DNA from: Deltaproteobacteria bacterium | GTDB taxonomy: Bacteria; Desulfobacterota; Binatia; UTPRO1 | Length of the DNA: 35,236 nt | Direction: 5' to 3' | NCBI GenBank assembly: GCA_029262315.1 | Contig: JAJCZP010000297.1 | Coordinates: 1-35,236 of the forward strand | Shown here: piece by piece, positions 1,442 to 32,679 of the stretch | How the letters are laid out: each line of letters opens with the position of its first letter | Position numbering within the stretch: the stretch's first letter is position 1 | The notes under the pieces: generated by a model | Databases searched by the model: none | What the model was told of the DNA's origin: nothing | What the model saw: only the letters and a program-made list of their open reading frames with translations | Program-made: the position numbers and the translations under genes

Positions 1442-1696
1442 ATGAGCACGAACAAGCGCACGTATTGGCAGGACAACCTGCGGCTGGTCAGGTTCTGCTT
1501 GACGATCTGGTTCGTCGTCTCGTTCGGCTTCGGAATTCTGCTCGTGGATGTTCTGAACCAGATACAGATCGGCGGGGTCCGGTTGGGGTTCTGGTTTGCG
1601 CAGCAGGGCAGCATCTACGCGTTCGTCGTTCTGATCTTCTACTACGCGTGGCGCATGAGTGTGGTCGACAAAGCACACGGCGTGACCGAGGACTGA
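1442..1696 (+). CDS. DUF4212 small subunit of a sodium/solute symporter
   Basis: An 84-residue protein with two transmembrane helices (about residues 17-38 and 55-75). It starts with the YWQDNLRL motif and has the central FGFWFAQQGS-like stretch (here LGFWFAQQGS) of the DUF4212 / putative solute:sodium symporter small subunit family. These proteins are regularly encoded just upstream of an SSS-family transporter, as here: the stop codon is two bases before the start of the large subunit. The ribosome site of the downstream gene, GAGGA at 1688-1692, lies inside this gene's last codons. The two genes are therefore probably co-translated and function as one transporter. The substrate is unknown; carboxylates such as acetate are typical of the family. 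Confidence 0.88.
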   Translation: MSTNKRTYWQDNLRLVRFCLTIWFVVSFGFGILLVDVLNQIQIGGVRLGFWFAQQGSIYAFVVLIFYYAWRMSVVDKAHGVTED

Positions 1697-1698
1697 AC

Positions 1699-3441
1699 GT
1701 GGATCTCCAGACGCTGACCTATCTCGTGGTCGGGGCTTCGTTCGTGCTCTACATCGGGATCGCCTTGGCTTCGAGGGCGCGCAGCACGGGCGAGTTCTAT
1801 GTTGCGGGCAAACATGTGCACCCGCTGGCCAACGGGATGGCGACGGCGGCGGATTGGATGTCGGCGGCGTCGTTCATCTCGATGGCCGGGCTCATCGCGT
1901 TCCTCGGCTACGATGGGGCGGTGTATCTCATGGGTTGGACAGGGGGGTACGTCTTGCTCGCCCTGCTTCTAGCTCCCTATCTCCGGAAGTTCGGCAAATT
2001 TACCGTGCCGGACTTCATCGGTGATCGCTACGACTCGCAGACGGCCCGTGTGGTCGCTGTCGTGTGCTTGATCCTCATTTCTTTCACGTACGTCGCTGGA
2101 CAGATGCGCGGTGTGGGCATCGTGTTTTCGCGTTTCCTGAATGTGGACATCTCCGTTGGTCTCTTCATCGGCATGGCGATCGTCTTCTTCTATGCCGTGC
2201 TCGGGGGGATGAAGGGCATCACCTACACTCAGGTCGCGCAGTATTGGGTGTTGATCCTTGCCTATCTCGTTCCCGCGGTGTTCATCTCGTTACAGGTAAC
2301 CGGGACGCCCGTTCCGCAGATCGCCTTCGCCAGTTCGGTGGTCGACGACGGTGGCTTCTTGCTGGAGAAGCTCGATCGGATCGTGACCGATCTTGGTTTC
2401 GGCGCCTACACCAGCGGCGCCAAGAGCCGCACCGATGTGTTTTTCATTACTCTGGCTCTCATGATCGGTACCGCCGGACTCCCGCACGTTATCGTGCGGT
2501 TTTTCACCGTGCCGCGTGTGCGCGATGCGCGCATGTCGGCCGGGTGGGCGCTGTTGTTCATCGCGATTCTGTACACGACGGCGCCCGCGGTCGGGGCGCT
2601 CGCGCGGCTGAATCTGACGGAAACGATTCAACACGGCCCCGTCGGTGCCGTGGACGGGAATCTCGCCTACGAGGAGCGGCCCCTCTGGTTCAGGACCTGG
2701 GAGGATACGGGCCTCTTGCGATTCGAAGACAAGAACGCAGATGGACGTATTCAGTACTACGACGATACGAATCCCGATTTCGCGGCGACCGCGCGTGAGT
2801 ATGGGTGGCGCGGCAACGAGCTCGGGGTCGATCGCGATATCATGGTGCTCGCCAATCCGGAGATCGCCGGTCTCCCCAATTGGGTGATCGCGTTGGTCGC
2901 GGCGGGTGGGATCGCAGCCGCACTCTCGACCGCGGCTGGCCTGCTCTTGGTCATCTCGGCCGCGGTGTCCCACGATCTCCTGAAGAGTGTGTTCGCACCG
3001 GAGATCAGTGAGCGGGGCGAGCTCCTGGCGGGCCGCGTCAGCGCGGCGGTCGCAATCCTCGTGGCGGGGTACCTCGGATACAATCCACCGGGATTCGTCG
3101 CTCAAGTTGTGGCGCTCGCGTTCGGGTTGGCTGCCGCCTCACTTTTTCCGGTCATCCTGCTCGGGATCTTCAGCCTGCGCGTGAACAAGTACGGGGCGAT
3201 CGCCGGCATGGTGAGCGGGCTGACCTTCACCCTGAGCTACATCATCTACTTCAAGGGCGTGTTCATGGCGCCGTTTGCGGAGAATGTTTCCGAGAACTGG
3301 TTGTTCGGAATCTCGCCGGAAGGGATCGGTGCTCTGGGCGCGGCATTGAATTTCGCGGTGGCGATAGCGGTCAGTGCGGTCACCCCTCCGCCGCCCGCCA
3401 CCGTCAGAGAGCTAGTGGAAAGAATAAGGGTGCCGTCTTGA
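1699..3441 (+). CDS. Sodium:solute symporter, VC_2705 subfamily (SSS)
   Basis: A 580-residue multi-pass transporter of the SSS family (relatives: ActP, PutP). I start it at GTG 1699 because GAGGA at 1688-1692 is six bases upstream, because it lies directly after the DUF4212 stop, and because the upstream extension of the frame overlaps that gene. Typical elements are the early TAADWMSAASFISMAGLI stretch, the GQMRGVGIVFSRFL segment, the GGMKGITYTQVAQY segment, and late helices with ALSTAAGLLLVISAAVSHDL. Between transmembrane segments lies a polar insertion of about 80 residues. It contains a textbook EF-hand-type loop (D344, N346, D348, G349, I351, D355, as DKNADGRIQYYD), suggesting a divalent-cation site. 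To my knowledge this insertion is a subfamily trait rather than a local oddity. Confidence 0.9.
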   Translation: MDLQTLTYLVVGASFVLYIGIALASRARSTGEFYVAGKHVHPLANGMATAADWMSAASFISMAGLIAFLGYDGAVYLMGWTGGYVLLALLLAPYLRKFGKFTVPDFIGDRYDSQTARVVAVVCLILISFTYVAGQMRGVGIVFSRFLNVDISVGLFIGMAIVFFYAVLGGMKGITYTQVAQYWVLILAYLVPAVFISLQVTGTPVPQIAFASSVVDDGGFLLEKLDRIVTDLGFGAYTSGAKSRTDVFFITLALMIGTAGLPHVIVRFFTVPRVRDARMSAGWALLFIAILYTTAPAVGALARLNLTETIQHGPVGAVDGNLAYEERPLWFRTWEDTGLLRFEDKNADGRIQYYDDTNPDFAATAREYGWRGNELGVDRDIMVLANPEIAGLPNWVIALVAAGGIAAALSTAAGLLLVISAAVSHDLLKSVFAPEISERGELLAGRVSAAVAILVAGYLGYNPPGFVAQVVALAFGLAAASLFPVILLGIFSLRVNKYGAIAGMVSGLTFTLSYIIYFKGVFMAPFAENVSENWLFGISPEGIGALGAALNFAVAIAVSAVTPPPPATVRELVERIRVPS

Positions 3442-3539
3442 GGTTGGCCGTCGGTTCGAGGTGTCTGGGTCAGCAGGGTTGGTGGTACCGCGCGCTACGC
3501 GGCGGTTTTCTACAAACTCCTCGAATGTTGGGAGTTCGT

Positions 3540-4280
3540 GTGAAACACGATTGGGCTGCCGCACAGGCGTTGCTGATACTGGCGTGCGTCGCAGTACCAG
3601 TCGCGGGGTGCGCGCTCGAGAACGAGGCCCCTCGTCGCGCCGAGTCCGTCGTTCTGCTCCATGGCTTGTCGCGTACGGATCGCGCGATGCGACCGCTGGC
3701 ACAGTACCTCACCGAGGCTGGATTCGACGTCCACAATCTTCGTTACGCTTCCACCGAGAAGTCCCCCGAGGGTCTCGTCGAGGATCTGAGTGAGCAGGTA
3801 GCGGCGTGTTGTGACGATGCCTCGGCACTGCACTTTGTCGGACATTCTCTCGGTGGCATCCTGATTCGCGCGTATCTCGCCGAACAGCCCCCGGCCAACA
3901 CGGGTCGTGTCGTCTTGATCGCTCCGCCGAACCAGGGCAGCGAGCTCGTCGACGTCCTCGGTGATTCGGCGCTGTTTCGGTGGGCGCTCGGCCCGACCGG
4001 TCAACAGCTCGGGACCGAGCCGGAGAGTCTTCCCAATCGCCTACCCCCGCCCGCGGTCGACGTCGGTGTCATCGCGGGTACGGGAACCGTCAGTCCGCTC
4101 GCGTCCGCCATGATCCCCGGGGAAGACGACGGGAAGGTTGCTGTAGCGAGAACGAAGCTCGAAGGGATGAAGGACTACCTCCTGGTGCCGAACTCCCATA
4201 CCTTCATCATGCGGTCCAAGAAGGTGGGCGCGCAGGTCGTCCATTTCCTTCGTACGGGCCGTTTCGTACACGCTCCGTAG
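3540..4280 (+). CDS. Lipase-like alpha/beta-hydrolase lipoprotein
   Basis: A 246-residue protein from GTG 3540, which has GGGAG at 3530-3534 upstream. Earlier in-frame starts (TTG 3438, ATG 3525) would only add a poor leader. The N-terminus is a lipoprotein signal ending in VAGC (lipobox Cys about residue 24), so the mature protein is probably membrane-anchored. The alpha/beta-hydrolase core shows the oxyanion-side LLHGLSR (about residue 41), the nucleophile elbow GHSLGG (Ser about 103) and a late VPNSHTFIM stretch carrying the likely catalytic His. The fold and the short lidless form resemble PGAP1-like or triacylglycerol-lipase-like esterases (Pfam Abhydrolase/lipase 2). The substrate cannot be told. 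It follows the symporter without a clear gap, so co-transcription is possible. Confidence 0.8.
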   Translation: MKHDWAAAQALLILACVAVPVAGCALENEAPRRAESVVLLHGLSRTDRAMRPLAQYLTEAGFDVHNLRYASTEKSPEGLVEDLSEQVAACCDDASALHFVGHSLGGILIRAYLAEQPPANTGRVVLIAPPNQGSELVDVLGDSALFRWALGPTGQQLGTEPESLPNRLPPPAVDVGVIAGTGTVSPLASAMIPGEDDGKVAVARTKLEGMKDYLLVPNSHTFIMRSKKVGAQVVHFLRTGRFVHAP

Positions 4281-4296
4281 CCGCCCTCTCTTTCCA

Positions 4297-5352
4297 CTAC
4301 GGTACCGCTACCACGTCTGCCACGATGCCCGTTGGGGCAAGTCCGATATCCACCAGGCGCCAGCCGCTCCCCGCACTATTCATGGCCACCACGAAAGAGT
4401 GAGGCGGCGAATCTATGCCCGTCAGCGGCGTTATCCCCGCGAGCACGCCGACCGTCGGTGACGCGAAGGCCAATCTGTTGAGCCCCGACTCAAGGCGAGG
4501 AAGAGCTTGCGCTTCCCAACTCGTCCCGCCGTTGGTCGTACGAAGGAGGGTCGGCTGAAGCGCGTCGTCGAGCAACGCAAGCCATCCGGTCGCAGCATCG
4601 AGGAATGTGATGGCCGAGATGCCTATGAGACCCGGCGGGATCGCCTCGGAGCGATCCTCCCAGGTCAGTCCTCCATCGAGCGAGCGGAAGAGCGACAACA
4701 GGCCGTTGTGTCCCCATACGGTCCGTCCCTCAACACAGGCAAAGTCAGCCGCCGGGGAGGGGATGGAGTCCCAGGTGGCACCGCCATCGGCAGAACGCAA
4801 AACGAGTCCAATGGAAGGACCAATGCCATGAGCCAGACCGATGCCGTCACCCGTGAAGCAGACGGAGCGTAAGCCGGCCTGCTCGGCGCCAGGCCGGCTT
4901 AGGTCAAGGGTCGCAGGATTCCACTGGGCGCCCCCGTTCGTTGTAAACAAGATGGTGGGCTCCCCGAACATCGGACCACCCAGGACCGGGTCTGCAGTGC
5001 CCGCCACGGCGCCTTCGGACGCGGAGAAGAACGCAACGTCATTATACGAGACGGCAACGTCATCTACCTGGACGGTCCATGAGTCACCACCGTCGCTGGT
5101 GTGAATGACTCCCCCTGCCCCGACGGCCCACCCGTGCGTGCGATCGACAAATTCGACATCACCGAGACCCGGCCGCGCGACCACGGGGGCCCACGTGACG
5201 CCGTCGTCTACCGAACGCAGCACAGTAGCTCCAGCCTCGGTGCCTCCGACGACGAAGAACCGTCCGCTGTTGCCGCCGCCCCCACTCCCGCAACCGACCG
5301 CGGTCAGCGCTACGAGCAGGAAAGCATGGGCAGAGTGAATGGCGTACCGCAC
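4297..5352 (-). CDS. BNR/Asp-box repeat lipoprotein, Ycf48-like
   Basis: A 351-residue protein. The open frame runs further upstream, but I start it at GTG 5352 because it opens directly into a lipoprotein signal (AHAFLLVALTAVGC) followed by a Gly/Ser-rich spacer. The rest is a beta-propeller with at least six Asp-box/BNR motifs of the S/T-x-D/N-G-G-x-x-W type: RSVDDGVTW, HTSDGGDSW, FTTNGGAQW, RSADGGATW, RSLDGGLTW and RTTNGGTSW. This resembles the photosystem II assembly factor Ycf48 and the WD40/YVTN/BNR-like exported proteins common in heterotrophs. There is no photosynthesis context, so the role here is unknown; exported protein binding or scaffolding is plausible. It is convergent with the lipase-like gene, with only 16 bases between stop codons. 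Confidence 0.78.
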   Translation of the reverse strand: MRYAIHSAHAFLLVALTAVGCGSGGGGNSGRFFVVGGTEAGATVLRSVDDGVTWAPVVARPGLGDVEFVDRTHGWAVGAGGVIHTSDGGDSWTVQVDDVAVSYNDVAFFSASEGAVAGTADPVLGGPMFGEPTILFTTNGGAQWNPATLDLSRPGAEQAGLRSVCFTGDGIGLAHGIGPSIGLVLRSADGGATWDSIPSPAADFACVEGRTVWGHNGLLSLFRSLDGGLTWEDRSEAIPPGLIGISAITFLDAATGWLALLDDALQPTLLRTTNGGTSWEAQALPRLESGLNRLAFASPTVGVLAGITPLTGIDSPPHSFVVAMNSAGSGWRLVDIGLAPTGIVADVVAVP

Positions 5353-5449
5353 GAGTCGGTTCGAGGCTACGGCGGTAGCTTCACGCGAGTCAATGACAGA
5401 CGCGAGCTCGAACAGAAGAAAGCGGCGATCTGTCGCGAACCGTGCCAGA

Positions 5450-6087
5450 ATGAGCCGTGATGCACATCCTGGTGAGATCGTGACTGCAACTGCAGAAGAC
5501 GTTCTCGAGTTTTGGTTCGGGGACGCGCGCGGCGATGCAGAGAGAGGGATGCAACGTCGTTCGTTCTGGTTCCAAGCCGACCCCGCTGTTGATGCGAGCA
5601 TCTCGAGGCGCTTCTCGGCGTCGGTTGAATCTGCCGCCCGCGGCGAGCTCGAAGCGTGGGAGCGAGAACCGCAGTCCAGCGTCGCGCTGATCATCCTACT
5701 GGACCAGTTTCCGAGGAACCTCTACCGGGGAAAGGCGGAAGCGTACGGTACGACTCCCGTGCTCTGGAGACTACCTTGCGCGCTGTCGCCGCTGGACACT
5801 GCGCAGAACTCTCCGTGGCCGAGCAATGCATGCTTGTCATGCCGTACGAACACACGGAGGACGTTTCCGTCCAGCGGGCAGGGATCGCACTTTTGCAGAA
5901 GCTTCTCGACGAAGTCGACCCGCTGTGGAAGCCGTTTGTACGAACCTCTCTCGACTTCGCGGTCCAGCACCTGGAGATCGTGGAGCGCTTCGGGAGGTTC
6001 CCGCATCGGAACGCAGTCCTCGGGCGGCCATCTGCCCCCGCCGAGCAAGCGTACCTGGACGGCGGGGGCGCGTCGTTCGGACAATGA
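5450..6087 (+). pseudogene. DUF924 family protein interrupted by a frameshift
   Basis: The gene is readable in two frames. From ATG 5450 (or GTG 5480, which has GGTGAG at 5471-5476) the frame gives the family opening AEDVLEFWFGD and continues through LLDQFPRNLYRGKAEAYGT to about 5750. The family sequence then continues one base back: DSRALETTLRAVAAGH, the PYEHTEDVSVQ motif and ERFGRFPHRNAVLGR, ending at TGA 6085-6087. The junction lies at about 5745-5757. A one-base deletion would explain it, either a real mutation or an assembly error. I see no slippery heptamer there, so programmed frameshifting is unlikely. Intact DUF924 proteins are about 190 residues, matching the sum of both parts. Their function is not established. 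Confidence 0.82.
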
Positions 6088-6102
6088 ACGAGGCCGCGGT
6101 GG

Positions 6103-7734
6103 TTACTCGAGCATCAGGATCTTGCGGTCGATCGTGTAGGGGTAGCCGACGCGACGGAGTTCGCGATTGAAGTTGTAGCCCTTGGTGGTCGTATTGCCGA
6201 CGCCTTTGATCTTGTAGAACTGGAGGGTCTCGGGCTCGTAGGGTGCTTCGTACAAGGTCAACCCCTTGTAGGTTTCTCCGACGCGCGCTTTCTTGCCGAC
6301 GAACTTGCCGGTGCACACTTCGTCGAAGGTGACTTGTCCGATTGGCCCGTAGTTCATCTCATCGCCGTAGAGCCACGCGTAGAAGTCATTGCGGTTGTTC
6401 TGGGACCAGATCTGGTTGGCAACGCGTGACTTCGTGTGCCGGAACGCGAAGTAGTACTGCACGCCCATGATTTCGTTCTTGCCGTCGCCGCGGCGATCGA
6501 AAACATCGTAGCATTGCGAGACGTTGCGGTAGTTGACGATGCCTTCCATGGCCGCGGAGGTCGACGGCAGCATCTCACGGAGCGTGCCGAGATGCCCGGT
6601 GTTGAGTCGCGTGCAGCCATGGGAGACCGGGCCGCGGCTGGTCAGGGCGACGCGGTTGTACGCCTTCCCGCTGCGGCTTCCCTCGTTGTAGGTGCGCCAC
6701 TCTTTCGGAACGAGCGGGTGTCCCTGAATCCAGTTGCTGATCCCGGTGTTGTGGATCGAGTTGTAGGCGATGCCCCCGCCGTATTCGTAGGGGAACATCG
6801 GCAGGATGCCGTAGTAGCCAGCCGATGAGACGTAGTCGACCATGCCGATCTGCCCACGTCCGTGCTTGCGGGGGATGAAGGTCCAGATGCCCGGTGTGGT
6901 GATCATCGGGATGGTACGTCCATCGACCGTGGTCGTCTTGTCGTAGGTGCCGGCTGCCCAGATGGCCGTGAACTCGTAGTAGTCGATCTTGCCGTCACGG
7001 ATCGCGTAGATGTTGTCGGTCACGCCATGGAAGAAGGCCTCGATCTTTGGGCCAAGTGCCGCGCCGTCGTCGGCTTTGGCGAGTGCGATGATCTCGGCGA
7101 GTGCGGTTTCCTGTTCAGGGGAAAGCTTGTAGGCGAAAATGCGGTTCTGGAAGAGCGCGTTCACGAGGTCGAGCTTTGCTCCCAGATCCGTCGGCTCCGG
7201 GCTGGTCTTCAGCAGGGCAGTCCAGCTCGCGGTCATCGCGCCGAAGTCTTTCTGGATGTGGTAAAGCCGCTCGGGGTTCAGCTTGTCGATCGTCTTCACA
7301 TTGAGGGCACGCCATTCGGGGGCGGACAGACTCGCTTTCTGGGCTGCCAGCGCGCGGAGGCCCTCCGCCTCGAACCGCTTCTGGAAGTCCTCCCACGCGG
7401 TATTGGAGGTGAGCGTGATGAGTTCCTTGTCGATCACCTCCTTGTACAGATCGTGCTTGGCGACGAGGTCGGTGAGGTAGTTGTCGAGCGTGGCCTCGGG
7501 CAGCACCATGCGCAGGCGCAACTGATTCCCGCGCGCGAGGTGTACCTTGATACGATCGCGCTCTTGCACCCGCGGCACGAAGCCCGTGTAGAAGTTCGGA
7601 TCGTAGTCGTTGAAAAAGATTCCGTACGGCGCCGGGTCGGTCCAGCGCTCACGGCTCAGCGCGTCAGCCTGAGGGACACCAAATGCGAGAACGAGTGCGG
7701 TGAGGCTCGCGGCAATGGCCAGCTTTCGTATCAT
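6103..7734 (-). CDS. Exported L,D-transpeptidase-like (YkuD) protein, paralogue 1
   Basis: A 543-residue protein starting at ATG 7734 with a strong AGGAGG-type site upstream. Residues 1-25 are a Sec signal peptide (cleavage after QADA). The N-terminal half (about 35-250) is an alpha-helical region I cannot name. The C-terminal half carries the YkuD catalytic signature SRGPVSHGCTRLN (H372, C374, R376) and an upstream H328 in SIHNTG, which would be the partner histidine. About 43 residues separate H328 from H372, against about 14-17 in classical enzymes, so the active-site lid holds an insertion. A Ca-binding-like loop (DRRGDGKNE, 413-421) follows. Family knowledge suggests peptidoglycan cross-linking or attachment of other molecules; the substrate is inferred only. 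It is co-linear along its whole length with the gene at 12172-13932. Confidence 0.8.
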   Translation of the reverse strand: MIRKLAIAASLTALVLAFGVPQADALSRERWTDPAPYGIFFNDYDPNFYTGFVPRVQERDRIKVHLARGNQLRLRMVLPEATLDNYLTDLVAKHDLYKEVIDKELITLTSNTAWEDFQKRFEAEGLRALAAQKASLSAPEWRALNVKTIDKLNPERLYHIQKDFGAMTASWTALLKTSPEPTDLGAKLDLVNALFQNRIFAYKLSPEQETALAEIIALAKADDGAALGPKIEAFFHGVTDNIYAIRDGKIDYYEFTAIWAAGTYDKTTTVDGRTIPMITTPGIWTFIPRKHGRGQIGMVDYVSSAGYYGILPMFPYEYGGGIAYNSIHNTGISNWIQGHPLVPKEWRTYNEGSRSGKAYNRVALTSRGPVSHGCTRLNTGHLGTLREMLPSTSAAMEGIVNYRNVSQCYDVFDRRGDGKNEIMGVQYYFAFRHTKSRVANQIWSQNNRNDFYAWLYGDEMNYGPIGQVTFDEVCTGKFVGKKARVGETYKGLTLYEAPYEPETLQFYKIKGVGNTTTKGYNFNRELRRVGYPYTIDRKILMLE

Positions 7735-7791
7735 TGGACTGCCCTCCTGTGTTGACGATGCCGAGACCCGGCGTTCACGGTGTAGGGCGGT

Positions 7792-7821
7792 ATTCTAGCC
7801 AGAGAGTTCCGAGATTCTCAA
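7792..7821 (-). promoter_or_regulatory. Sigma70-type promoter of the L,D-transpeptidase-like gene
   Basis: On the minus strand, TTGAGA (7821-7816) and TAGAAT (7797-7792) are separated by 18 bases. Each hexamer matches five of six consensus positions. Transcription would begin near 7785, about 50 bases before the ATG at 7734. This suggests the gene has its own promoter in addition to any read-through from the serine hydrolase upstream. The call rests on motif matching alone. Confidence 0.5.
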
Positions 7822-7855
7822 ATACGAGGGCCCGCGAGGGTTGTTGCCTACGGGC

Positions 7856-8902
7856 TTACTCTTCCTCGAGCGCGTGCCGGACGACACGATCCGTCAGCTC
7901 GGCGATGAAGGAGCCTCGATACCGGGGTGCGCCCTCGAGAAACACGGCGACGACGACCTGATGTCCGGAGTGATGTCGGACGATGCCGGCGTCTGCATGG
8001 ATGGGTCCCCATGTGCCGGTTTTCGAGTACACCTCGACGCCCGCGGTGCGCATGGCACCGCCCGCGATGCGGTGGCGGAGATATCCTTGCTTCCGTACAT
8101 CGCGTTGCATGCGACGCCGGACCTCCTCACAGCTGACGGGCGCGAGCGCCCGGTCGGTTGCTAGGAGCGCGAGCAGCCGTACGGAATCATCGGCAGTCAT
8201 CGCCTGACGGTTTCGGAGGTCACCGCTTCGCTTGGGGAGACACCCGGGTACGGTCGGGTCCTCGAGGAACTGCCGCTCCCGGGCCGAGATATCGCCGCCG
8301 TCGTAGGTCGGGTGCACGGTATGGAGGTCGGTGATGCCGAGATCAGCAAGCCAACGCTTCACCAGGTGGCGCTTGGTCCGAAAGGCTTCGTACTCTTCCT
8401 TGGAGAGCCGGGCTCCGGGCGTCGTGTCGGTGAGCTTTGCCACGACCCGTTGCGTGGCTTTGTTGCTACTGGAGTAGGTCATCGCCCGGAGGTGGCGATC
8501 CAGCTCGGGATCGATCTCGAGCATTCCCGCATCGCGCCACGCGAACGCCGCCATCAGGTAGACGAATTTGGGCACGCTGGCGGGATAAACGGGCGAGTCG
8601 CCTTTCCAGTGCGCGAGGCGGGCGGGTCCTTTCACAGGGATATCGATGACCGCGGTCCGAATCGTTTGCTGCCGCAGAGCCGCGTCGGTTTTGCGGAGGG
8701 CCTTGATGGTGTCATCGAAGAACGCCTGGAGTTTCGCGTCCTGTTCGACGGTGGCAAGCCAGGCGGTTGCCGCCTTTCCGCGCGCGCCGCCGATCGGCGG
8801 CCCGGTCTTTGGTTCGACCGCGCTCGCGAGTCCGGTGATCGCGCCGCTGATCGCGGTCAGCGCCACTACGAGCCCCACTCCCCTCCAAGCGCGTACACCC
8901 AC
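7856..8902 (-). CDS. SxxK serine hydrolase, beta-lactamase/PBP fold, exported
   Basis: About 348 residues from GTG 8902, chosen because it gives an Arg-containing n-region followed by the hydrophobic stretch GLVVALTAISGAITGLASA, a signal peptide or anchor. Other in-frame GTGs lie close by, so the start is uncertain. The three class A beta-lactamase/PBP motifs are in order: S109-V-P-K112 (SxxK), S145-S146-N147 (SxN, in YSSSNKAT) and K294-T-G (SKTGTWG). I find no clear ExxLN omega-loop motif, so it is more likely a DD-peptidase-like or other acyl-serine enzyme (Beta-lactamase2 group) than a true drug-hydrolysing beta-lactamase. It is encoded head-to-tail with one transpeptidase-like gene and divergently from the exported dikinase-like gene. 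Confidence 0.78.
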   Translation of the reverse strand: MGVRAWRGVGLVVALTAISGAITGLASAVEPKTGPPIGGARGKAATAWLATVEQDAKLQAFFDDTIKALRKTDAALRQQTIRTAVIDIPVKGPARLAHWKGDSPVYPASVPKFVYLMAAFAWRDAGMLEIDPELDRHLRAMTYSSSNKATQRVVAKLTDTTPGARLSKEEYEAFRTKRHLVKRWLADLGITDLHTVHPTYDGGDISARERQFLEDPTVPGCLPKRSGDLRNRQAMTADDSVRLLALLATDRALAPVSCEEVRRRMQRDVRKQGYLRHRIAGGAMRTAGVEVYSKTGTWGPIHADAGIVRHHSGHQVVVAVFLEGAPRYRGSFIAELTDRVVRHALEEE

Positions 8903-8975
8903 GGGCGGCAGAATAGGCTGCCCACATGCGAACGGCCACCCCCCCCAGGCCGGATGGGGAGCCGCGGCCTCCGCC

Positions 8976-8991
8976 CTCCGTTCAGACGGAG
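8976..8991. promoter_or_regulatory. Inverted repeat in the divergent intergenic region
   Basis: Within the 187-base gap 8903-9089 between two divergent genes lies CTCCGT-TCAG-ACGGAG, a perfect six-base inverted repeat with a four-base loop, flanked by CCG and CGG. It is the only clear symmetrical element in the gap and could be an operator shared by both genes or an RNA hairpin in the leader of the plus-strand gene. I could not identify confident -35 and -10 boxes. An eight-C run at 8939-8946 is also in the gap. Confidence 0.3.
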
Positions 8992-9089
8992 CGGTTTCCC
9001 TTCGCGGAGCGCCATGCCAAGATCCGCGGCCGGGTCTCTCATTGATGTCGCGCGGAGCGGTTCGGCCCGCGCGGGAAGGAGTCGAGACG

Positions 9090-12000
9090 GTGGATCGACG
9101 ACGAAGAATCCTTTGGATGGTTGGCGCGCTTCTCGTTGCCTCGGTGGGTAGTGCTGAGGCGGCGGCCACCGGTGGGCTGGGGCTCACGGCCGCGCAGACC
9201 AAGAAGCTCGACCAGGGCTGGAAGCTCACGCTCAGTAAGAAGAAGGGCCCGTACACGAAGAACTATTGCGTGTGCAAGAACGGTGAGAAGAAGCCGGTCA
9301 TGCTTCCCGACGGGCGGATCGTGAGCCCGTGCAGCGGCAATCCAGAGTTCTGTTCCGCGTTTCGCGAGCCGTGGGCCAAGGCGATCGCGGACGAGCGGAT
9401 GTACATTGCCAACCTGTTCTCCCGCGACCTTTGGCAGTGGGACGACTTCCCCGATCATCATGATCTCGTGCGTGGGTACATCCTCGAGAAGTTTTTCGTC
9501 GAGACCCATCCGAAGCACAAGCTGGCGGAGATGCGAGCCTACGGTGGCCTGGCCGGCGCCGAATACGAGGCTCGCGACGCACCCCTTTTCTTCGAGCGCT
9601 ATCTCGGCCTCGATGGCTTCTCGGAGTCGCGCCACTATCTCCTGGCCTACGATCTGCAGCGCCGCTTCTATGTGCGCGCCGGCCTGGGCGACATCGTCAA
9701 GGTCCGGAACCTGGCGTCCGCGATCCATCGCGAGCGCGAGAGCTTCAAGCCGCTCCGCGACGCCGTCCACAATCAGATCTCGGCGGCGTTGGTGCCTCGC
9801 ATCGAGGCCTATCGTGCCGGTGTTCCTGCCGGGGGGACGCGCGATCGGATCGACGAGTTGGTGCGTGAGATCGAAGCGCTCACCAAACTCGACGAATCAG
9901 CGATGAAGACGCAACTTTCAGAGATCGAGGACCCCGGGCTTCGCGACCAGATCACGTCGCGGCTGCCGGCCGCTGGGGCGAGTGATCTCGATGCGGTGCA
10001 AGCGCTGGCCGGCGTCATGGTTGGCGCGCGCCAGGCCGTTGAAGCCAAGATAGTGACGGTTGCGGATCGACGACGCGCCATCGATCTCGCCATCATGGCG
10101 TCGACGATTCTGCAGCAACGCAGTTCCACAGTCGTCGACTCCTCGAGCGCGACCGCTCGGGATCTCGTCGGCCTGCTGGCCGCCCTGGTGGATGCTGCCT
10201 ACGGAACCGGACTCCTGAGCGAACGTGAGCGCGCGGCGCTGGGCGACAATCTGAAGGAGCTGCACACATCATCTCGCCTGGCGCGGCATGAGCTCGAGCG
10301 CGCGATGGCGCGCGCGGCGCGTGCCATCGAGTGGGCGCAGGCGACGACCCTCTATGCCTTCGAGGAAGTGCGCGCACCGTGGAGCTATCTGCTGCCGGAT
10401 ACGGCGCTGATACCCGATGACGTGCTGCGCGGCTCGCCGTTGCTCGTCTATGGGCGTGCCCTCGGGCGGCTGCAGGACTGGGCCGTGGGTGGTGATCCGA
10501 TTCGCCACGATATCTTTGGTGCGTCACTCGACCAGGGCGTGCGTGCGCTCAACCCCGGTCTCGCATTCGGACCACTCAAGGTGGCACCCGTTGGCGGCGA
10601 TTATTCGCGCGATCATGTGGTGGCGCTTCCTGAGACTCCCGCCGACCTCGAGCCAGCCGCGGGTATCTTGACCCGCGGCGAAGGTAATGTGGTGTCGCAC
10701 GTGCAGCTCCTCGCACGTGCCCTCGGCATTCCCAACGTCGTGCTGTCGGCGAATGTCTACGAGAAGTTCGCGGCGCATGATGGAGGCGACGTCTTTTTCA
10801 TTTCGACTCCGGGTGGCCGCGTCGTCGTGAAAGACGCCGCGAGTATGACCGCTGACGACCAGGCGGTCATTGCCGAGTACACACGCAACGAAGAACGCGG
10901 TGCGGAGGGATCGCTCGAGGGCGGCGGTGCCAAGCTGCACATAGACAAAGAGCGACTGGATCTGACCGACACGCTTGCGATCGATCTTGCGAGCATGCGG
11001 CGGAAGCACTCGGGTATCCGTTGTGGTCCCAAGGCCGCCTTTCTCGGCGAGCTCAAGCATCTGTTTCCGGACAAGGTGGCACGTGGCGTCGTGGTTCCCT
11101 TTGGTGCCTACCATGCGCACTACAATGCAGCGCAGGTTGCCGTGCCGAGCGAGCTCCGGAGCGCGAGCATCGCGACGGTGGGCGAACCGCTCCCGACATT
11201 CGTCGAGCGGACATACGCCGAGTTTTTCGGGAAGATGATCCCGTCCGGGGCTGACGAGCGGACCCTGGCGACATGGATCCGTCCCCGGCTGTCCGTGATC
11301 CGGCATTCGCTCGAGCAGAAGCCCCTCGCCGATGATCTCCGGGCTTCGATTCAAAGCGGGTTGGCGCGCCACGGTCTTTTGAACGCATCCGACCCGACGC
11401 AGACGGTCGGCGTGTTCATCCGGAGCGATACGAACGTCGAGGATCTGGACAACTTCAATGGCGCCGGGCTCAACCTCACGCTCTTCAATCGCCGCTCGCT
11501 TGCAGATGTGTACGCGGGATTGAAGGAAGTGTGGGCATCTCCGTTCACCTATCGCTCGTTCTCCTGGCGGCAGACGCTCATCGACGAGCCGCTCTGGGTG
11601 CTACCGTCGGTGATCATTCTCGAGAGCGTGGCCACCGAGAAGTCCGGTGTGCTCGTTACGGCCGACGTCGACGGACACGACGAGAAGGGCATGCTGATCG
11701 CGACGTCGGAGGGAGTTGGTGGGGCGGTCGACGGCACGCCTGCCGAGACGATCGTCTGGTCGAAGGGTGACGTCGAGCTGGTGACGATGTTCAAGTCGCC
11801 CTACCGGCGCCTGCTCCAGGCGGGTGGAGGGACGGAGGTCGTGCCGTCGACCCGCAGCGAGTTCGTGCTCGACGACGCGGACGTCCGCGAGCTTACCTCG
11901 ACGGCCGATACAGTCCGCGCCAGGCTCGTCCCGTCGCGGGGCCCGCAGGGGAAGGCACGCCCGTGGGACATCGAGTTTGGATTCTCGAAGGGCAAGCTCT

Positions 12001-12125
12001 GGCTCTTCCAGGTCCGCCCGTTCGTCGGGAACGATTCATTGCAGAATGTCGCGGCGCTCAATGCATTCGAGGCGCCGCGCGCCGGCGCCGACGACGCGCT
12101 ACGTCTCGACGAGACGATACCGTAG
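9090..12125 (+). CDS. Exported dikinase-like protein: phosphohistidine swivel domain plus PPDK-type ATP-grasp
   Basis: A 1011-residue protein from GTG 9090, which has AAGGAG at 9076-9081 eight bases upstream. Residues 1-24 form a signal peptide with an RRRRIL n-region (a possible Tat motif) and cleavage after AEA. Then come a four-Cys segment (C60, C62, C81, C88), a long helical region (about 90-450), and a PEP-utiliser mobile domain with AGILTRGEGNVVSHVQLLAR (catalytic-type His537). After that is a PPDK_N-like ATP-grasp domain with PKAAFLGEL (K648), IRSDTNVED (R778), DIEFG (960-964) and FQVRP (Q974). The swivel-before-ATP-grasp order is that of glucan and phosphoglucan water dikinases, opposite to PEP synthase. 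No PEP TIM barrel follows. The ATP-binding residues look intact, so it is probably active. The acceptor is unknown, and an exported ATP-dependent enzyme is odd. Confidence 0.82.
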   Translation: MDRRRRILWMVGALLVASVGSAEAAATGGLGLTAAQTKKLDQGWKLTLSKKKGPYTKNYCVCKNGEKKPVMLPDGRIVSPCSGNPEFCSAFREPWAKAIADERMYIANLFSRDLWQWDDFPDHHDLVRGYILEKFFVETHPKHKLAEMRAYGGLAGAEYEARDAPLFFERYLGLDGFSESRHYLLAYDLQRRFYVRAGLGDIVKVRNLASAIHRERESFKPLRDAVHNQISAALVPRIEAYRAGVPAGGTRDRIDELVREIEALTKLDESAMKTQLSEIEDPGLRDQITSRLPAAGASDLDAVQALAGVMVGARQAVEAKIVTVADRRRAIDLAIMASTILQQRSSTVVDSSSATARDLVGLLAALVDAAYGTGLLSERERAALGDNLKELHTSSRLARHELERAMARAARAIEWAQATTLYAFEEVRAPWSYLLPDTALIPDDVLRGSPLLVYGRALGRLQDWAVGGDPIRHDIFGASLDQGVRALNPGLAFGPLKVAPVGGDYSRDHVVALPETPADLEPAAGILTRGEGNVVSHVQLLARALGIPNVVLSANVYEKFAAHDGGDVFFISTPGGRVVVKDAASMTADDQAVIAEYTRNEERGAEGSLEGGGAKLHIDKERLDLTDTLAIDLASMRRKHSGIRCGPKAAFLGELKHLFPDKVARGVVVPFGAYHAHYNAAQVAVPSELRSASIATVGEPLPTFVERTYAEFFGKMIPSGADERTLATWIRPRLSVIRHSLEQKPLADDLRASIQSGLARHGLLNASDPTQTVGVFIRSDTNVEDLDNFNGAGLNLTLFNRRSLADVYAGLKEVWASPFTYRSFSWRQTLIDEPLWVLPSVIILESVATEKSGVLVTADVDGHDEKGMLIATSEGVGGAVDGTPAETIVWSKGDVELVTMFKSPYRRLLQAGGGTEVVPSTRSEFVLDDADVRELTSTADTVRARLVPSRGPQGKARPWDIEFGFSKGKLWLFQVRPFVGNDSLQNVAALNAFEAPRAGADDALRLDETIP

Positions 12126-12171
12126 GGCCAGGATGGGATGTCGTCAGCCAGTACCGTTGCGAGGGGCGTTC

Positions 12172-13932
12172 ATGCACATGGTTTCTTCGTTTACTGCTGA
12201 GTCCGCTCGTCGCACGATGCGCTCGAGGCTCGGGCTCGCCGCACTCGTCGTGTGTACGGGTATCGTTCAAACAGCGAGCGTCGCGCGTGCCGTCGACATG
12301 CTCGAAGAACCACCGAACTACGGCTCGTTCTACGATCGGTACGAGCCGAGCTTCTACACCGGCTTCGCGCCTCGCGGCGTGGATCCTCGGCGGTTGCACC
12401 TGCACATCGGCCGCGGCAACCAGGTGCGTGCGACGGTCGTCCTCTCCGACGACGTACTGCGTGACTACGCGCGGGATCTTCAGGCACGCCAGCACACCTA
12501 TCGAACACTCGTCGATGAGGGTCGAATCGAGCTGACCCAGAACAGGGGGTTCGAGGCGTTCAATGCGCGTCTCGCGGAGATCGGGCTCGAGCGCCTGGTG
12601 CGAGAGGAGGGCGAGTTGGCTCCCGAGACGCTCCGCGCGCGCAACCTGGCGCTTCTCGAGCGCTTGAATCCCGGTCGTGTCTTTCGGATCGAGTTTTCCG
12701 AGGACGAGCTCATGCGTCGGTGGCTCGCCCGGCTGAAGCCCGCCGACACGGGCAGCATGGGCCGCGATCGTCGACTCGAGCTCGTGAACGCACTCCTTCC
12801 TACGCGACTCTGGCTCGCGGAACTCGACACCGGTACGGTGAAAGAACTGAAGGCGCTGGTCGGTCAAGGGATCGCTCTCACCGAGCGCGGGGCGCAGGCC
12901 GAAGACGTTGCTCTCGCCGACGATACTGCGGGCGTGCACCCCACGCTTCTCGCCGATGACGCTGCACCCACCACGGGCTCGACGGTCTCGGTGACCTTCC
13001 GAGCGGCCTACTTCGCCCTCCTCGAGCGGGTCAGCCACGATCTGTATCCGCGGCGCGACGGGCGGCTCGCATTCGTCGAGTTCACGGCGATCTATCCCAT
13101 CGGCTCGGTGAACGAGTATACGACCTACCGTGGTAGTCGGATTCCCCTGTATCCGACGCCGGGTCGCCGCGCGCTCACGACGCATCAGCGGACGAAGACG
13201 GTCGATCACATTCCCACGGTCGCTGTGTACAGCTACTCGCCGTGGATTCCGTACATGCATGTCGGCACCAAGCTCCACAACTCGTTTCATACCTTGTGGT
13301 GGCGCATGCAGCCTAAACAGACACGGTTCCTACCCGAGAGTTGGAAGAATGCCCCGCAGGCCTCCCGCGACGGCAAGTCCTACCAGTACCTCTGGCTGAT
13401 TTCGCGCGGGCCAATGTCGCATGGCTGTACGCATCTCACGACCGGTCACATCGCGGAGCTCCGCCAGCTCTTCCCGTCCGAGACCGAGAAGCTCTACGAC
13501 ATCGATACTTTCCTCAACAAGTCGTACCTCTACGACGTCTTCGACATCGATGGGGACTTTACGCCCGAAGTCATGGGCGTGCGCTACTTCATCGCGTATT
13601 CGTTGAAGAACAAGAAGCCGGACGTCCTACGTGTGCGGAACGAGCGCCGTGCCTACTACGAGTGGCTATATGGAGGGGAGCTGCGCCTCGACGAGGAAGG
13701 CCGGGGGAGCTTCGGCGAGATGCGTGACGGCCGCTTCGTCGAGCGAACCGCGAAAGACGGCGCGACCTACGAGGGCTTGGCGCTCTACGAGGCGGCGTAC
13801 GAGCCGGAGAAGTTTCAGATGTACAAGCTGGTCGACATTCCCTTCGCGCGGGCGCTGCGGAAGGTCGGTCTCCATCATCCCTTCAAGGGCGTCCCGCCCC
13901 CGCTAACGAGTGCCGCTGGAGGCAAGATATGA
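12172..13932 (+). CDS. Exported L,D-transpeptidase-like (YkuD) protein, paralogue 2
   Basis: A 586-residue protein from ATG 12172, with GAGGGG at 12161-12166 five bases upstream. The hydrophobic stretch LGLAALVVCTGIVQTASVARA is a signal peptide. The rest aligns from end to end with the protein encoded at 6103-7734: shared anchors are FYTGF near residue 61, RGNQ near 81, VEFTAIY near 302, LHNSFH (H369), SRGPMSHGCTHLTTGH (H417, C419), YDVFDIDGDFTPEVMGVRY and the C-terminal LYEAAYEPE. The Arg usually following SHGCx is His421 here, and the next Asn is Thr, so activity or specificity may differ from paralogue 1. DIDGDFTPE (458-466) resembles a Ca-binding loop. It lies 46 bases after the dikinase-like gene, probably in the same operon, and overlaps the RidA start. 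Confidence 0.8.
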   Translation: MHMVSSFTAESARRTMRSRLGLAALVVCTGIVQTASVARAVDMLEEPPNYGSFYDRYEPSFYTGFAPRGVDPRRLHLHIGRGNQVRATVVLSDDVLRDYARDLQARQHTYRTLVDEGRIELTQNRGFEAFNARLAEIGLERLVREEGELAPETLRARNLALLERLNPGRVFRIEFSEDELMRRWLARLKPADTGSMGRDRRLELVNALLPTRLWLAELDTGTVKELKALVGQGIALTERGAQAEDVALADDTAGVHPTLLADDAAPTTGSTVSVTFRAAYFALLERVSHDLYPRRDGRLAFVEFTAIYPIGSVNEYTTYRGSRIPLYPTPGRRALTTHQRTKTVDHIPTVAVYSYSPWIPYMHVGTKLHNSFHTLWWRMQPKQTRFLPESWKNAPQASRDGKSYQYLWLISRGPMSHGCTHLTTGHIAELRQLFPSETEKLYDIDTFLNKSYLYDVFDIDGDFTPEVMGVRYFIAYSLKNKKPDVLRVRNERRAYYEWLYGGELRLDEEGRGSFGEMRDGRFVERTAKDGATYEGLALYEAAYEPEKFQMYKLVDIPFARALRKVGLHHPFKGVPPPLTSAAGGKI

Positions 13933-17529: not shown

Positions 17530-18447
17530 TCAGCCGCCGCTTGCGTGCGCGATCGGGTCCGGGAGACGCACCCGCACCACCTGACCCGATGCCCCGAGCG
17601 GGGGCAGCGTGCGGCCGTCGAAAGCGAGATCGACACCCCCTGCGTTGCCGACCTTCAGCGAGAAGCTGTCGTGGGCTCTCAGGGTGCGGGTGTCCCCGGG
17701 CTCGAGCCAGTACTCTTGGCCTGGGCCGTCGTCCCGTCCGATCTCGAGCCAGACCGTTTCGGTGGCGACGATGCGCAATTCCCGGGCGCCAGCCTGGGCT
17801 GGGTCGGGCTCTGTTTCGGAGGGAGCGATCTGGGTGGCGGTCTCGCCCGCGGGCGGATTCGCCGCCGCGGCGGCGGTCTCTGCCGAGACAGTAACGACGG
17901 GTGCTTCTGCTCGAGGAGCCTCAACGCGCCGCGCCAGTCGCGCAGGGTTCGCGTTCGCCGGAGCGGGAGCCGCTGCGTCGGGCGGAGCCTCGATCGTGTT
18001 ACTGCCGGTCGCAACGGTTGCCGACGCGGCATTGCCAGGATCGGCTGCAACGGCGACGGGTTCCGGGGAGTTGCGGACCAGGAGGAAGGTGGCGAGCGCT
18101 ACCGCTAGGACCACGGCACCTGGCCTCCAGAGACTATCGATCGAGAAGGCGAAGGGTCTTCCGGACGGGGTCAGCCCTGGACCCGCGGGACCGGCCCGCA
18201 CTTGTTGGACCTGCCCGAGAAACTCAGGAAGCAGCGCGTCCACTTCGAGCCCGACGAAGGCCGCGTACCTCCGGAAGAAGGGGATCAGGTAGAACTCGTC
18301 GGGAATACCGACCGCTGTGGATTCGCCTTCCAGGAGCTGCACGTAGCGAAGAGGAATACCGGACTCCGTCGCCGCGAGCTCGACGGACAGACCGCGTTCC
18401 TCGCGGGCCTCTTTCAGGACTTCGGCAATGTGAGAACGATCACTCAT
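17530..18447 (-). CDS. rodZ: RodZ-like cell-shape protein
   Basis: A 305-residue protein from ATG 18447; a TTG 39 bases upstream is an alternative. Residues 5-70 are a HTH_25-type helix-turn-helix (IAEVLKEAREERGLSVELAATESGIPLRYVQLLE... in two pieces of the family pattern). A single transmembrane helix is at about 108-124. A Pro/Ala-rich periplasmic linker runs to about 215, and the C-terminal beta domain (DUF4115: RELRIVATETVWLEIGRD and EYWLEPGDTRTLRAHDSFSLKVGNAGG) ends the protein. RodZ links MreB to the elongasome and controls rod shape. It diverges from the TetR gene, so the palindrome at 18536-18555 is also in its upstream region. It shares a wall-synthesis theme with the 6-14 kb cassette but is not adjacent to it. 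Confidence 0.85.
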   Translation of the reverse strand: MSDRSHIAEVLKEAREERGLSVELAATESGIPLRYVQLLEGESTAVGIPDEFYLIPFFRRYAAFVGLEVDALLPEFLGQVQQVRAGPAGPGLTPSGRPFAFSIDSLWRPGAVVLAVALATFLLVRNSPEPVAVAADPGNAASATVATGSNTIEAPPDAAAPAPANANPARLARRVEAPRAEAPVVTVSAETAAAAANPPAGETATQIAPSETEPDPAQAGARELRIVATETVWLEIGRDDGPGQEYWLEPGDTRTLRAHDSFSLKVGNAGGVDLAFDGRTLPPLGASGQVVRVRLPDPIAHASGG

Positions 18448-18517
18448 ACGGATACTTGCAGCATAATCAGGCACGGCGAGCTGCAATAGTACTGATATGC
18501 GTTCACCTTACCAGCCG

Positions 18518-32647: not shown

Positions 32648-32679
32648 GATGCGTTCCGTCGATGGAGTGAGGTGTGGTG

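Follow-up and report, generated by a model that had tools for sequence, protein, structure and literature searches.

Plant glucan water dikinase carries a swivel domain ahead of a C-terminal ATP-grasp, and rifampin phosphotransferase, HpeHI, and PEP synthase are cytoplasmic enzymes in which the ATP-grasp comes first. L,D-transpeptidases (YkuD, PF03734) have their cysteine in an [S/T]HGC motif, with a histidine 14 to 17 residues upstream. ATP/ADP carriers of the NTT family are typical of plastids and intracellular parasites, and ATP is generally considered absent from the bacterial periplasm. In the eukaryotic secretory pathway, the Golgi kinase Fam20C is served by a carrier that delivers ATP to the lumen. 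Characterized NTTs are mostly nucleotide importers, Simkania NTT4 showed no nucleotide transport in a heterologous host, and the function of the NTTs of free-living bacteria, including NTT-HEAT-cNBD, is reported as unknown by Major et al. (2017, PMC5381601), who mention neither kinases, the periplasm, nor export for these carriers. In the literature searched, we found no described system combining an exported dikinase, a hydrolase, SHGC proteins, and an NTT, and no linkage of NTTs to exported phosphotransferases. Here, we analyzed such a locus in a window of 35,236 nucleotides (the whole stretch of DNA studied), in which a first-pass annotation had proposed a four-gene cassette of exported wall-type enzymes and a dikinase-like protein.

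Four predicted exported proteins in the window

The four open reading frames (ORFs) lie where the first-pass annotation had placed them, i.e., at 6103-7734 and 7856-8902 on the minus strand and at 9045-12125 and 12172 (or 12217)-13932 on the plus strand, and all are intact and bear export signals. Signal-peptide-like N termini, which had been assigned to all four products, are indeed present and recur in homologues whose N termini are otherwise dissimilar. The ORF at 9045-12125 encodes a predicted exported dikinase-like phosphotransferase of 1,026 residues with a Sec-type signal peptide, for which a GTG start at 9090 is as possible as the ATG at 9045. The swivel and ATP-grasp read earlier in this protein were both recovered. 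A PF00391 match at residues 534 to 573 (10641-10760; 19.8 bits, slightly under the cutoff of 23.1) contains an invariant histidine at about 10698-10700 (S-H-x-Q-L-L-A-R) and is followed by a PPDK_N ATP-grasp domain (PF01326) at residues 662 to 999 (11025-12038; E = 1.9e-23). The swivel histidine and the RSDTN(V/M)ED motifs of the ATP-grasp are invariant in 14 dikinases, with identity down to 27 to 30%, and a structure model of the ATP-grasp matches the ATP domain of rifampin phosphotransferase (TM 0.83, E = 5.6e-10).

This domain order, in which the PPDK_N ATP-grasp is C-terminal to the swivel, is that of glucan water dikinase and phosphoglucan water dikinase. Unlike the plant enzyme, the window dikinase is bacterial, predicted to be exported, and has a helical N-terminal region with a Cys-rich start, and no starch- or other glycan-binding domain (such as CBM45 or CBM20) was detected in it by Pfam search. 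It has the ATP-grasp fold and phosphohistidine swivel in common with rifampin phosphotransferase, HpeHI, and PEP synthase but has no Pfam match to a PEP/pyruvate-binding barrel and scores far under the family cutoffs, with at best 72.5 bits against 883 for PEP synthase/PPDK and 50.4 against 999 for rifamycin phosphotransferase (NF041857). The proposed export of the dikinase gains support from the signal peptides predicted in its homologues: a crude rule for export signals was passed at 12 of the 14 dikinase loci with an available N terminus versus about 25% of the genes from the same loci, and the window dikinase itself fails this rule by one threshold only.

Across a divergent intergenic region (8903-9044), whose arrangement is also seen in G002, G004, G005, G029 (contig C86), G031, and G035 (contig C147), lies the exported SxxK hydrolase (7856-8902, minus strand). 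As the first reading had it, the protein carries the SxxK, SxN, and KTG motifs (SVPK, SSN, and KTG), and it matches Beta-lactamase2 (PF13354; E = 3.9e-16, 59.5 bits against a cutoff of 22), corresponding to a class A beta-lactamase fold. Its catalytic residues are conserved among homologues. It remains under the equivalog cutoff for true class A beta-lactamases (NF033103; 17.7 versus 200 bits), and a sequence search against the PDB returned no match for it.

The two remaining genes encode exported proteins with an SHGC motif, i.e., protein A (543 residues; 6103-7734, minus strand) and protein C (start at 12172 or 12217, end at 13932, plus strand), the latter encoded after the dikinase, where most relatives have it too. 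They are paralogous as proposed (34% identity over 566 columns, E = 2e-103). Protein A is 58 to 69% identical to its orthologues at loci L062 to L065, with invariant H328, R367, and S371-H372-G373-C374-T375, and protein C is 56 to 60% identical to the proteins in the same position at L051 to L056. Both H328 and the SHGC motif (residues 371 to 374 of protein A, 6613-6624, minus strand), in which C374 is the candidate nucleophile, are invariant in 19 aligned proteins. The first-pass label “transpeptidase-like” is weak. An SHGC motif with a conserved upstream histidine is reminiscent of YkuD enzymes, but the histidine and the motif are separated by 42 residues, a long insertion relative to YkuD, and none of the 19 proteins matches PF03734 above its cutoff, five giving sub-threshold matches that are centered on the motif (best 14.1 versus 23.4 bits). 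A profile-profile comparison with YkuD gave P = 1.4e-4 and a probability of 53%, compared to less than 1% for three unrelated controls. The structure model (pLDDT 85 overall, 50 to 64 at residues 290 to 330) has a fold without a match in the PDB. On this evidence, the SHGC proteins are not taken as proven YkuD enzymes and, since they are only weakly YkuD-like, the transpeptidase label is not established. They form a new, so far undescribed family of exported proteins.

Conservation of the gene set and its linkage to NTT carriers

A total of 15 loci with an exported dikinase were found, across many genera, all of them with one or more partner genes at a distance of no more than 10 kb, in agreement with the co-occurrence check named beforehand. 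Weak phylum-level dikinase matches (L097 to L102) span the ATP-grasp only and were left out of these counts, and a contig scan queried with a single protein instead of an alignment gave one relative, its coverage outside the sampled phylum being poor. The SxxK hydrolase is beside the dikinase at 13 of the 15 loci and, by motif alone, at a 14th. One or two SHGC proteins accompany all nine dikinases of the closer clade and none of the six divergent ones. The order hydrolase (minus), dikinase (plus), SHGC, SHGC is found in G002, G004, G005, G031, and G035, with a single SHGC gene in G029, while a Desulfobulbaceae metagenome-assembled genome (MAG; L067) has the order dikinase-SHGC-SHGC-hydrolase; at L052, L054, L055, L056, and L067, the first SHGC ORF shares 4 bp with that of the dikinase. 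The gene set of the proposed cassette is therefore conserved, but a fixed four-gene unit is ruled out because elsewhere in its family and class the orthologues of protein A are paralogues that occur on their own (L062 to L065 in G002, G004, G005, and G029). In G300, the protein A orthologue adjoins the cluster.

Genes found 3′ of the cassette at L051 to L053 (SBF transporter, dehydrogenase, and MFS) differ between loci and were considered chance neighbors. Exported phosphatases occur near cluster genes in G300 (a 5′-nucleotidase) and G023 (a metallophosphoesterase). A defense system was rejected, the sole PADLOC match falling in the NTT-HEAT protein, on its cyclic-nucleotide-binding domain.

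The local arrangement had been read as a unit, yet the most informative partners, namely NTT genes and an exported kinase-like domain, lie outside that earlier reading. A member of the ATP/ADP carrier family (NTT, PF03219-like) is encoded within 10 kb of the dikinase at 10 of the 15 loci, in eight genera, versus about 0.13 expected (Poisson-binomial P ~ 1e-18, related loci being counted separately). Among 38 related genomes, an NTT is carried by 9/9 with the dikinase and 3/29 others (Fisher P = 1.3e-6). The NTTs of G000 (the genome of the window), G004, G005, G016, G023, and G035 match PF03219 above its cutoff, whereas only the A4 profile detected those of G029 and G031. In the PDB, the NTT profile finds the chloroplast ADP,ATP carrier 9j3j (E = 3.2e-5), and the carriers beside the dikinase belong to the same group as the NTTs of free-living bacteria (PMC5381601). 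At the other five loci, including the window, no NTT was found within 10 kb. In G002, the NTT is 12.8 kb from the dikinase with contig ends intervening; the G035 C147 contig, at only 14.6 kb, limits the search; the NTT of the window's genome is on a different contig; and none was detectable anywhere in the Desulfobulbaceae MAG. Exported dikinase, SxxK hydrolase, and NTT are thus genetically linked across many genera, with SHGC proteins in one of the two dikinase clades.

In three relatives (G002, G004, and G005), the SxxK hydrolase orthologue is fused to a kinase-like domain with catalytic residues of the PI3/PI4-kinase type; this domain also flanks the NTT gene in G023, and on another contig of G000 a lipoprotein with PI3/PI4-kinase-like catalytic residues adjoins NTT and NTT-HEAT-cNBD. 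This domain is patchy, being found only in these five genomes. Its K, E, HxDx4N, and DxG residues are invariant in six sequences, three of which match PF00454 weakly (best E = 0.024), and the proteins bear signal peptides or lipoboxes. A PDB profile search returned no kinase; its match to a tyrosyl-tRNA synthetase (50-residue stretch, E ~ 0.006) was taken as chance.

A possible ATP-fueled envelope phosphotransfer system

The repeated presence of NTT genes beside an exported ATP-using enzyme suggests that ATP is sent out to power envelope chemistry. The linkage and the conserved motifs are observed, whereas the export of ATP, the direction of transport, and the substrate are inferences; on this basis, we propose with a probability of about 0.45 that the window encodes the enzyme part of an ATP-fueled cell-envelope phosphotransfer system. 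The position of the kinase-like domain and the neighboring exported phosphatases also speak for it. More tentatively still, free-living bacteria may export ATP via NTT to fuel the phosphorylation of envelope polymers by secreted kinases and dikinases. The NTT would exchange cytoplasmic ATP for ADP or AMP, making ATP available in the periplasm, where the dikinase would phosphorylate its own histidine at the expense of ATP, with AMP and Pi set free. As with glucan water dikinase, whose outcome is a phosphorylated polymer with release of AMP and Pi, the phosphate would then pass to a polymer of the envelope, the likeliest acceptor being a hydroxyl of a glycan or of peptidoglycan, and the SxxK hydrolase and SHGC proteins could trim or rearrange that polymer. 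The earlier idea that the dikinase may phosphorylate a wall or surface polymer is plausible.

Other explanations would account for part of these data. The genes could form a salvage module, in which the NTT imports nucleotides or other phosphorylated compounds, envelope and extracellular material is processed or scavenged by the exported enzymes, and the dikinase works toward ATP formation or on a small molecule, like rifampin phosphotransferase and HpeHI. The import activity of most characterized NTTs (PMC5381601) agrees with this, as do the neighboring 5′-nucleotidase and the fact that RPH and HpeI, the ATP-grasp domain's best relatives with solved structures, act on small molecules. Nevertheless, we consider salvage unlikely, as it explains neither the signal peptides and lipoboxes on the ATP-binding dikinase and kinase-like domain nor the fusion of the latter to a wall-type hydrolase. 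An ATP-dependent ligation in place of stable phosphorylation, in which an envelope component would transiently receive an acyl or hydroxyl phosphate from the dikinase and an SHGC or hydrolase-like protein would use it to form a cross-link, would resemble the PPDK-related PigC, which activates its substrate for condensation. The SHGC protein does keep a Cys/His pair and is encoded directly downstream in coupled ORFs, but the weak similarity of the dikinase to the condensing enzymes PigC and RedH is limited to the shared ATP-grasp domain and the SHGC partner is absent at the six divergent loci, which makes ligation rather improbable.

It is more improbable still that envelope-enzyme genes are merely clustered, with an exported dikinase that has degenerated and encounters no ATP in the periplasm, even though this compartment is generally held to lack ATP and the dikinase copy beside the G031 cluster is disrupted by an internal stop and a large gap. 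The invariance of the swivel histidine and RSDTN(V/M)ED over such divergent dikinases and a gene linkage that is deep and far over chance argue against this.

The proposed phosphotransfer system would parallel, by analogy only, eukaryotic secretory-pathway kinases such as Fam20C, likewise ATP-using in a carrier-supplied compartment, but in a bacterium and with another carrier family and dikinase chemistry. The link between NTTs and exported ATP-using phosphotransferases makes both periplasmic ATP and the role of NTTs in free-living bacteria testable, and it hints at a phosphorylated envelope polymer and a family of SHGC enzymes that have yet to be described. If true, this would represent a bacterial counterpart of the ATP-supplied kinases of the eukaryotic secretory pathway and give a role to the so far unexplained NTTs of free-living bacteria.

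The dikinase cluster and its conservation

The four genes named by the first-pass annotation are all present and intact in the window: SHGC protein A (positions 6103-7734, minus strand), an SxxK hydrolase (7856-8902, minus strand), a dikinase-like protein (9045-12125, plus strand, with an alternative GTG start at 9090) and SHGC protein C (12172/12217-13932, plus strand, with two candidate starts). The two SHGC proteins, named for a shared motif, are paralogous as proposed (34% identity). Domain searches assigned a Beta-lactamase2 domain to the hydrolase (E=3.9e-16) and placed a swivel region at dikinase residues 534-573 (19.8 bits, slightly under the cut-off), with PPDK_N C-terminal to it at residues 662-999 (E=1.9e-23). 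Since the window is a complete contig (C297, 35,236 bases) of a fragmented assembly (5.92 Mb, 298 contigs), more genes may lie past its ends. The same contig encodes a VC_2705-family sodium/solute symporter (1465-3441, plus strand; 850.8 bits against a cut-off of 320.75), a RodZ-like cell-shape factor with HTH_25 and RodZ_C domains (17530-18486, minus strand), 3.6 kb downstream of the cluster, and a UvrD/PcrA-type helicase (32674-34941, plus strand; TIGR01073, 794 bits, under the 911 cut-off).

Homologues were sought in 38 relatives, in 395 evenly sampled genomes of the phylum and in one narrow contig scan beyond it, the assemblies being fragmented. The dikinase was found in 9 of the 38 relatives, with two loci each in genomes G029 and G035; the even sample added loci in G300, G381 and G251, and the contig scan one in a Desulfobulbaceae MAG (locus L067), giving 15 loci. 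Clade I, which includes the window's own protein, shows 43 to 64% identity between genera, and clade II (G016, G023, G029-C1, G035-C130, G381 and G251) is about 30% identical to it. The co-occurrence check bore out the proposed association: the hydrolase adjoins the dikinase at 13 of 15 loci by profile and at a 14th (G251) by motif only, and one or two SHGC genes accompany all nine clade I dikinases, with none found at the six clade II loci. The commonest gene order is hydrolase (minus strand), then dikinase, SHGC-B and SHGC-C (all plus strand). Five loci (L052, L054, L055, L056 and L067) show a 4-bp overlap between the dikinase ORF and that of the first SHGC protein, which suggests translational coupling. 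The window is without SHGC-B, and its gene at 6103-7734 is the SHGC-A paralogue, which lies off the cluster in G002, G004, G005 and G029 (L062-L065) and near the dikinase in G300 (L104). One dikinase copy in G031 (C163; L056:9988-11688, minus strand) has an internal stop and a large central gap, and further dikinase fragments occur terminally on contigs C173 and C115 of that genome; this may be a broken gene or an assembly collapse or fault.

Predicted export and catalytic motifs

The N-termini of the dikinase homologues are dissimilar in sequence, yet nearly all complete ones have a positively charged start, then a hydrophobic core and a cleavage site with small residues. By a crude signal-peptide rule, 12 of the 14 dikinase loci having an N-terminus pass, versus 35 of 141 genes of the same loci. 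The window protein has all of these features and misses the rule on one threshold only; starting at the GTG at 9090 gives an N-terminus of textbook signal-peptide form, MDRRRRILWMVGALLVASVGSAEAA. Such recurrent features, as read from sequence, are hard to explain otherwise than by export, in agreement with the initial prediction. Directly after the predicted signal peptide, clade I dikinases, including that at 9045-12125, carry a Cys-rich start (CxC...PC...FC) in the N-terminal part of the protein (about 60-110 aa), a possible metal or disulfide site, of which clade II retains just part.

All 14 dikinases compared, down to 27 to 30% identity, keep two motifs without change, S-H-x-Q-L-L-A-R in the swivel and R-S-D-T-N-(V/M)-E-D in the ATP-grasp, and the ATP-grasp of the predicted model matches rifampin phosphotransferase (TM 0.83, E=5.6e-10). 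In plant glucan water dikinase the swivel precedes the ATP-grasp, as in the window protein, whereas in PEP synthase and rifampin phosphotransferase the order is reversed. A domain search of the window dikinase for a starch-binding domain found none.

The transpeptidase-like label given to the SHGC proteins is weakly supported. Residues H328, R367 and S371-H372-G373-C374-T375 are invariant in the alignment of 19 members, and sub-threshold YkuD matches occur in 5 of them, those detailed covering the SHGC motif, but Pfam and NCBIfam searches returned no accepted match for the two window proteins. The predicted structure (mean pLDDT 85), a low-confidence model across residues 290-330 (pLDDT 50-64), matched nothing in the PDB. 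In profile-profile comparison, the family reached 53% probability against YkuD proteins of the same class (P=1.4e-4), and three unrelated controls stayed below 1%. It is likely, if not established, that the family derives distantly from YkuD, and the proteins may act as transpeptidases.

ATP/ADP-carrier-type genes and a second putative ATP user

The main partner, overlooked in the first-pass annotation, is a set of genes of the ATP/ADP-carrier family (NTTs). A conserved membrane protein adjoining many dikinases gave weak matches to PF03219 (TLC ATP/ADP transporter) and TIGR00769 (NTP/NDP exchange), and a profile built from six such proteins matched a PDB entry for the chloroplast ADP,ATP carrier (E=3.2e-5). 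Of the 15 dikinase loci, 10 have an NTT gene no more than 10 kb away, in eight genera (G004, G005, G031, G016, G023, G029-C1, G035-C130, G300, G381 and G251), versus 0.13 loci expected from NTT gene counts and genome sizes (P ~1e-18, which overstates the linkage because related loci are not independent). Kinship aside, there are still eight genera, three of them more distant members of the phylum. By the same profile, NTTs occur in 9/9 dikinase genomes and 3/29 others among the 38 relatives (P=1.3e-6). In G002 the NTT is 12.8 kb from the dikinase, outside the limit; none was found in the window, in the whole Desulfobulbaceae MAG or near the clade I dikinases of G029 and G035, genomes that have one beside their clade II copy. 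An NTT fused to HEAT repeats and a cyclic-nucleotide-binding domain (NTT-HEAT-cNBD) is also adjacent in G004, G005 and G031, its position being taken by a HEAT-cNBD protein in G300. A second NTT paralogue, some 10 kb downstream from the cassette, is conserved in three genomes of one genus (G002:C72:18952-20259, G004:C59:85462-86787 and G005:C41:59224-60522).

In G002, G004 and G005, three related genomes, the hydrolase is about 300 residues longer, as a fusion with a PI3/PI4-kinase-like domain (L053:1084-3030, L054:5738-7681 and L055:4744-6666, all (-)). The added residues share an invariant pattern (K..K, E, HxDxxxxN, DNG), and matches to PF00454 (PI3_PI4_kinase) are weak (3/6 kinase-like members, best E 0.024). 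Judged by these motifs, the domain would be a second exported, kinase-like ATP user. In the window's genome it forms a lipoprotein-like gene on contig C282 (L079, C282:8000-22000; 8162-9454, minus strand), directly adjoining genes for an NTT (6726-8114, minus strand) and an NTT-HEAT-cNBD protein (3333-6623, plus strand). In G023 (L084, C91:62000-76000), two exported kinase-like lipoproteins flank the NTT gene, alongside an exported metallophosphoesterase, a separate cNBD protein, an NTT-HEAT protein and a PBP1-like protein. A single locus in both G004 and G005 unites NTT, NTT-HEAT-cNBD, kinase-hydrolase fusion, dikinase and two SHGC proteins.

Possible functions

Linkage, export signals, conserved catalytic residues and domain order are observed, and the most likely reading, at a probability of about 0.45, is ATP-fuelled phosphotransfer in the envelope. 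The NTT would bring ATP to the periplasm in exchange for ADP/AMP, the dikinase would phosphorylate its own histidine and then a group on an envelope glycan or peptidoglycan, and the hydrolase and SHGC proteins would act on the same polymer. Exported phosphatases also occur as neighbours, namely the G023 metallophosphoesterase and, next to SHGC-A in G300, a 5'-nucleotidase identified by Pfam match (L104:6683-8413, (-)), which would clear AMP released by the dikinase; a partial gene resembling it adjoins SHGC-A in G394 (L167:8972-10276, (-)). Nucleotide or phosphate salvage is an unlikely alternative purpose for such a gene set, ATP-dependent ligation through a transient phosphate is somewhat less probable still, and the absence of any functional system appears the most doubtful.

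The individual parts of the cluster fall in known superfamilies. NTTs and NTT-HEAT-cNBD fusions have been reported from free-living bacteria with their function left open, in a text that does not mention kinases, periplasm or export (Major et al. 2017, PMC5381601). The open-access literature searched contained nothing on these elements combined; within it, no described kind of system pairs an exported dikinase with dedicated ATP/ADP-carrier-type genes.
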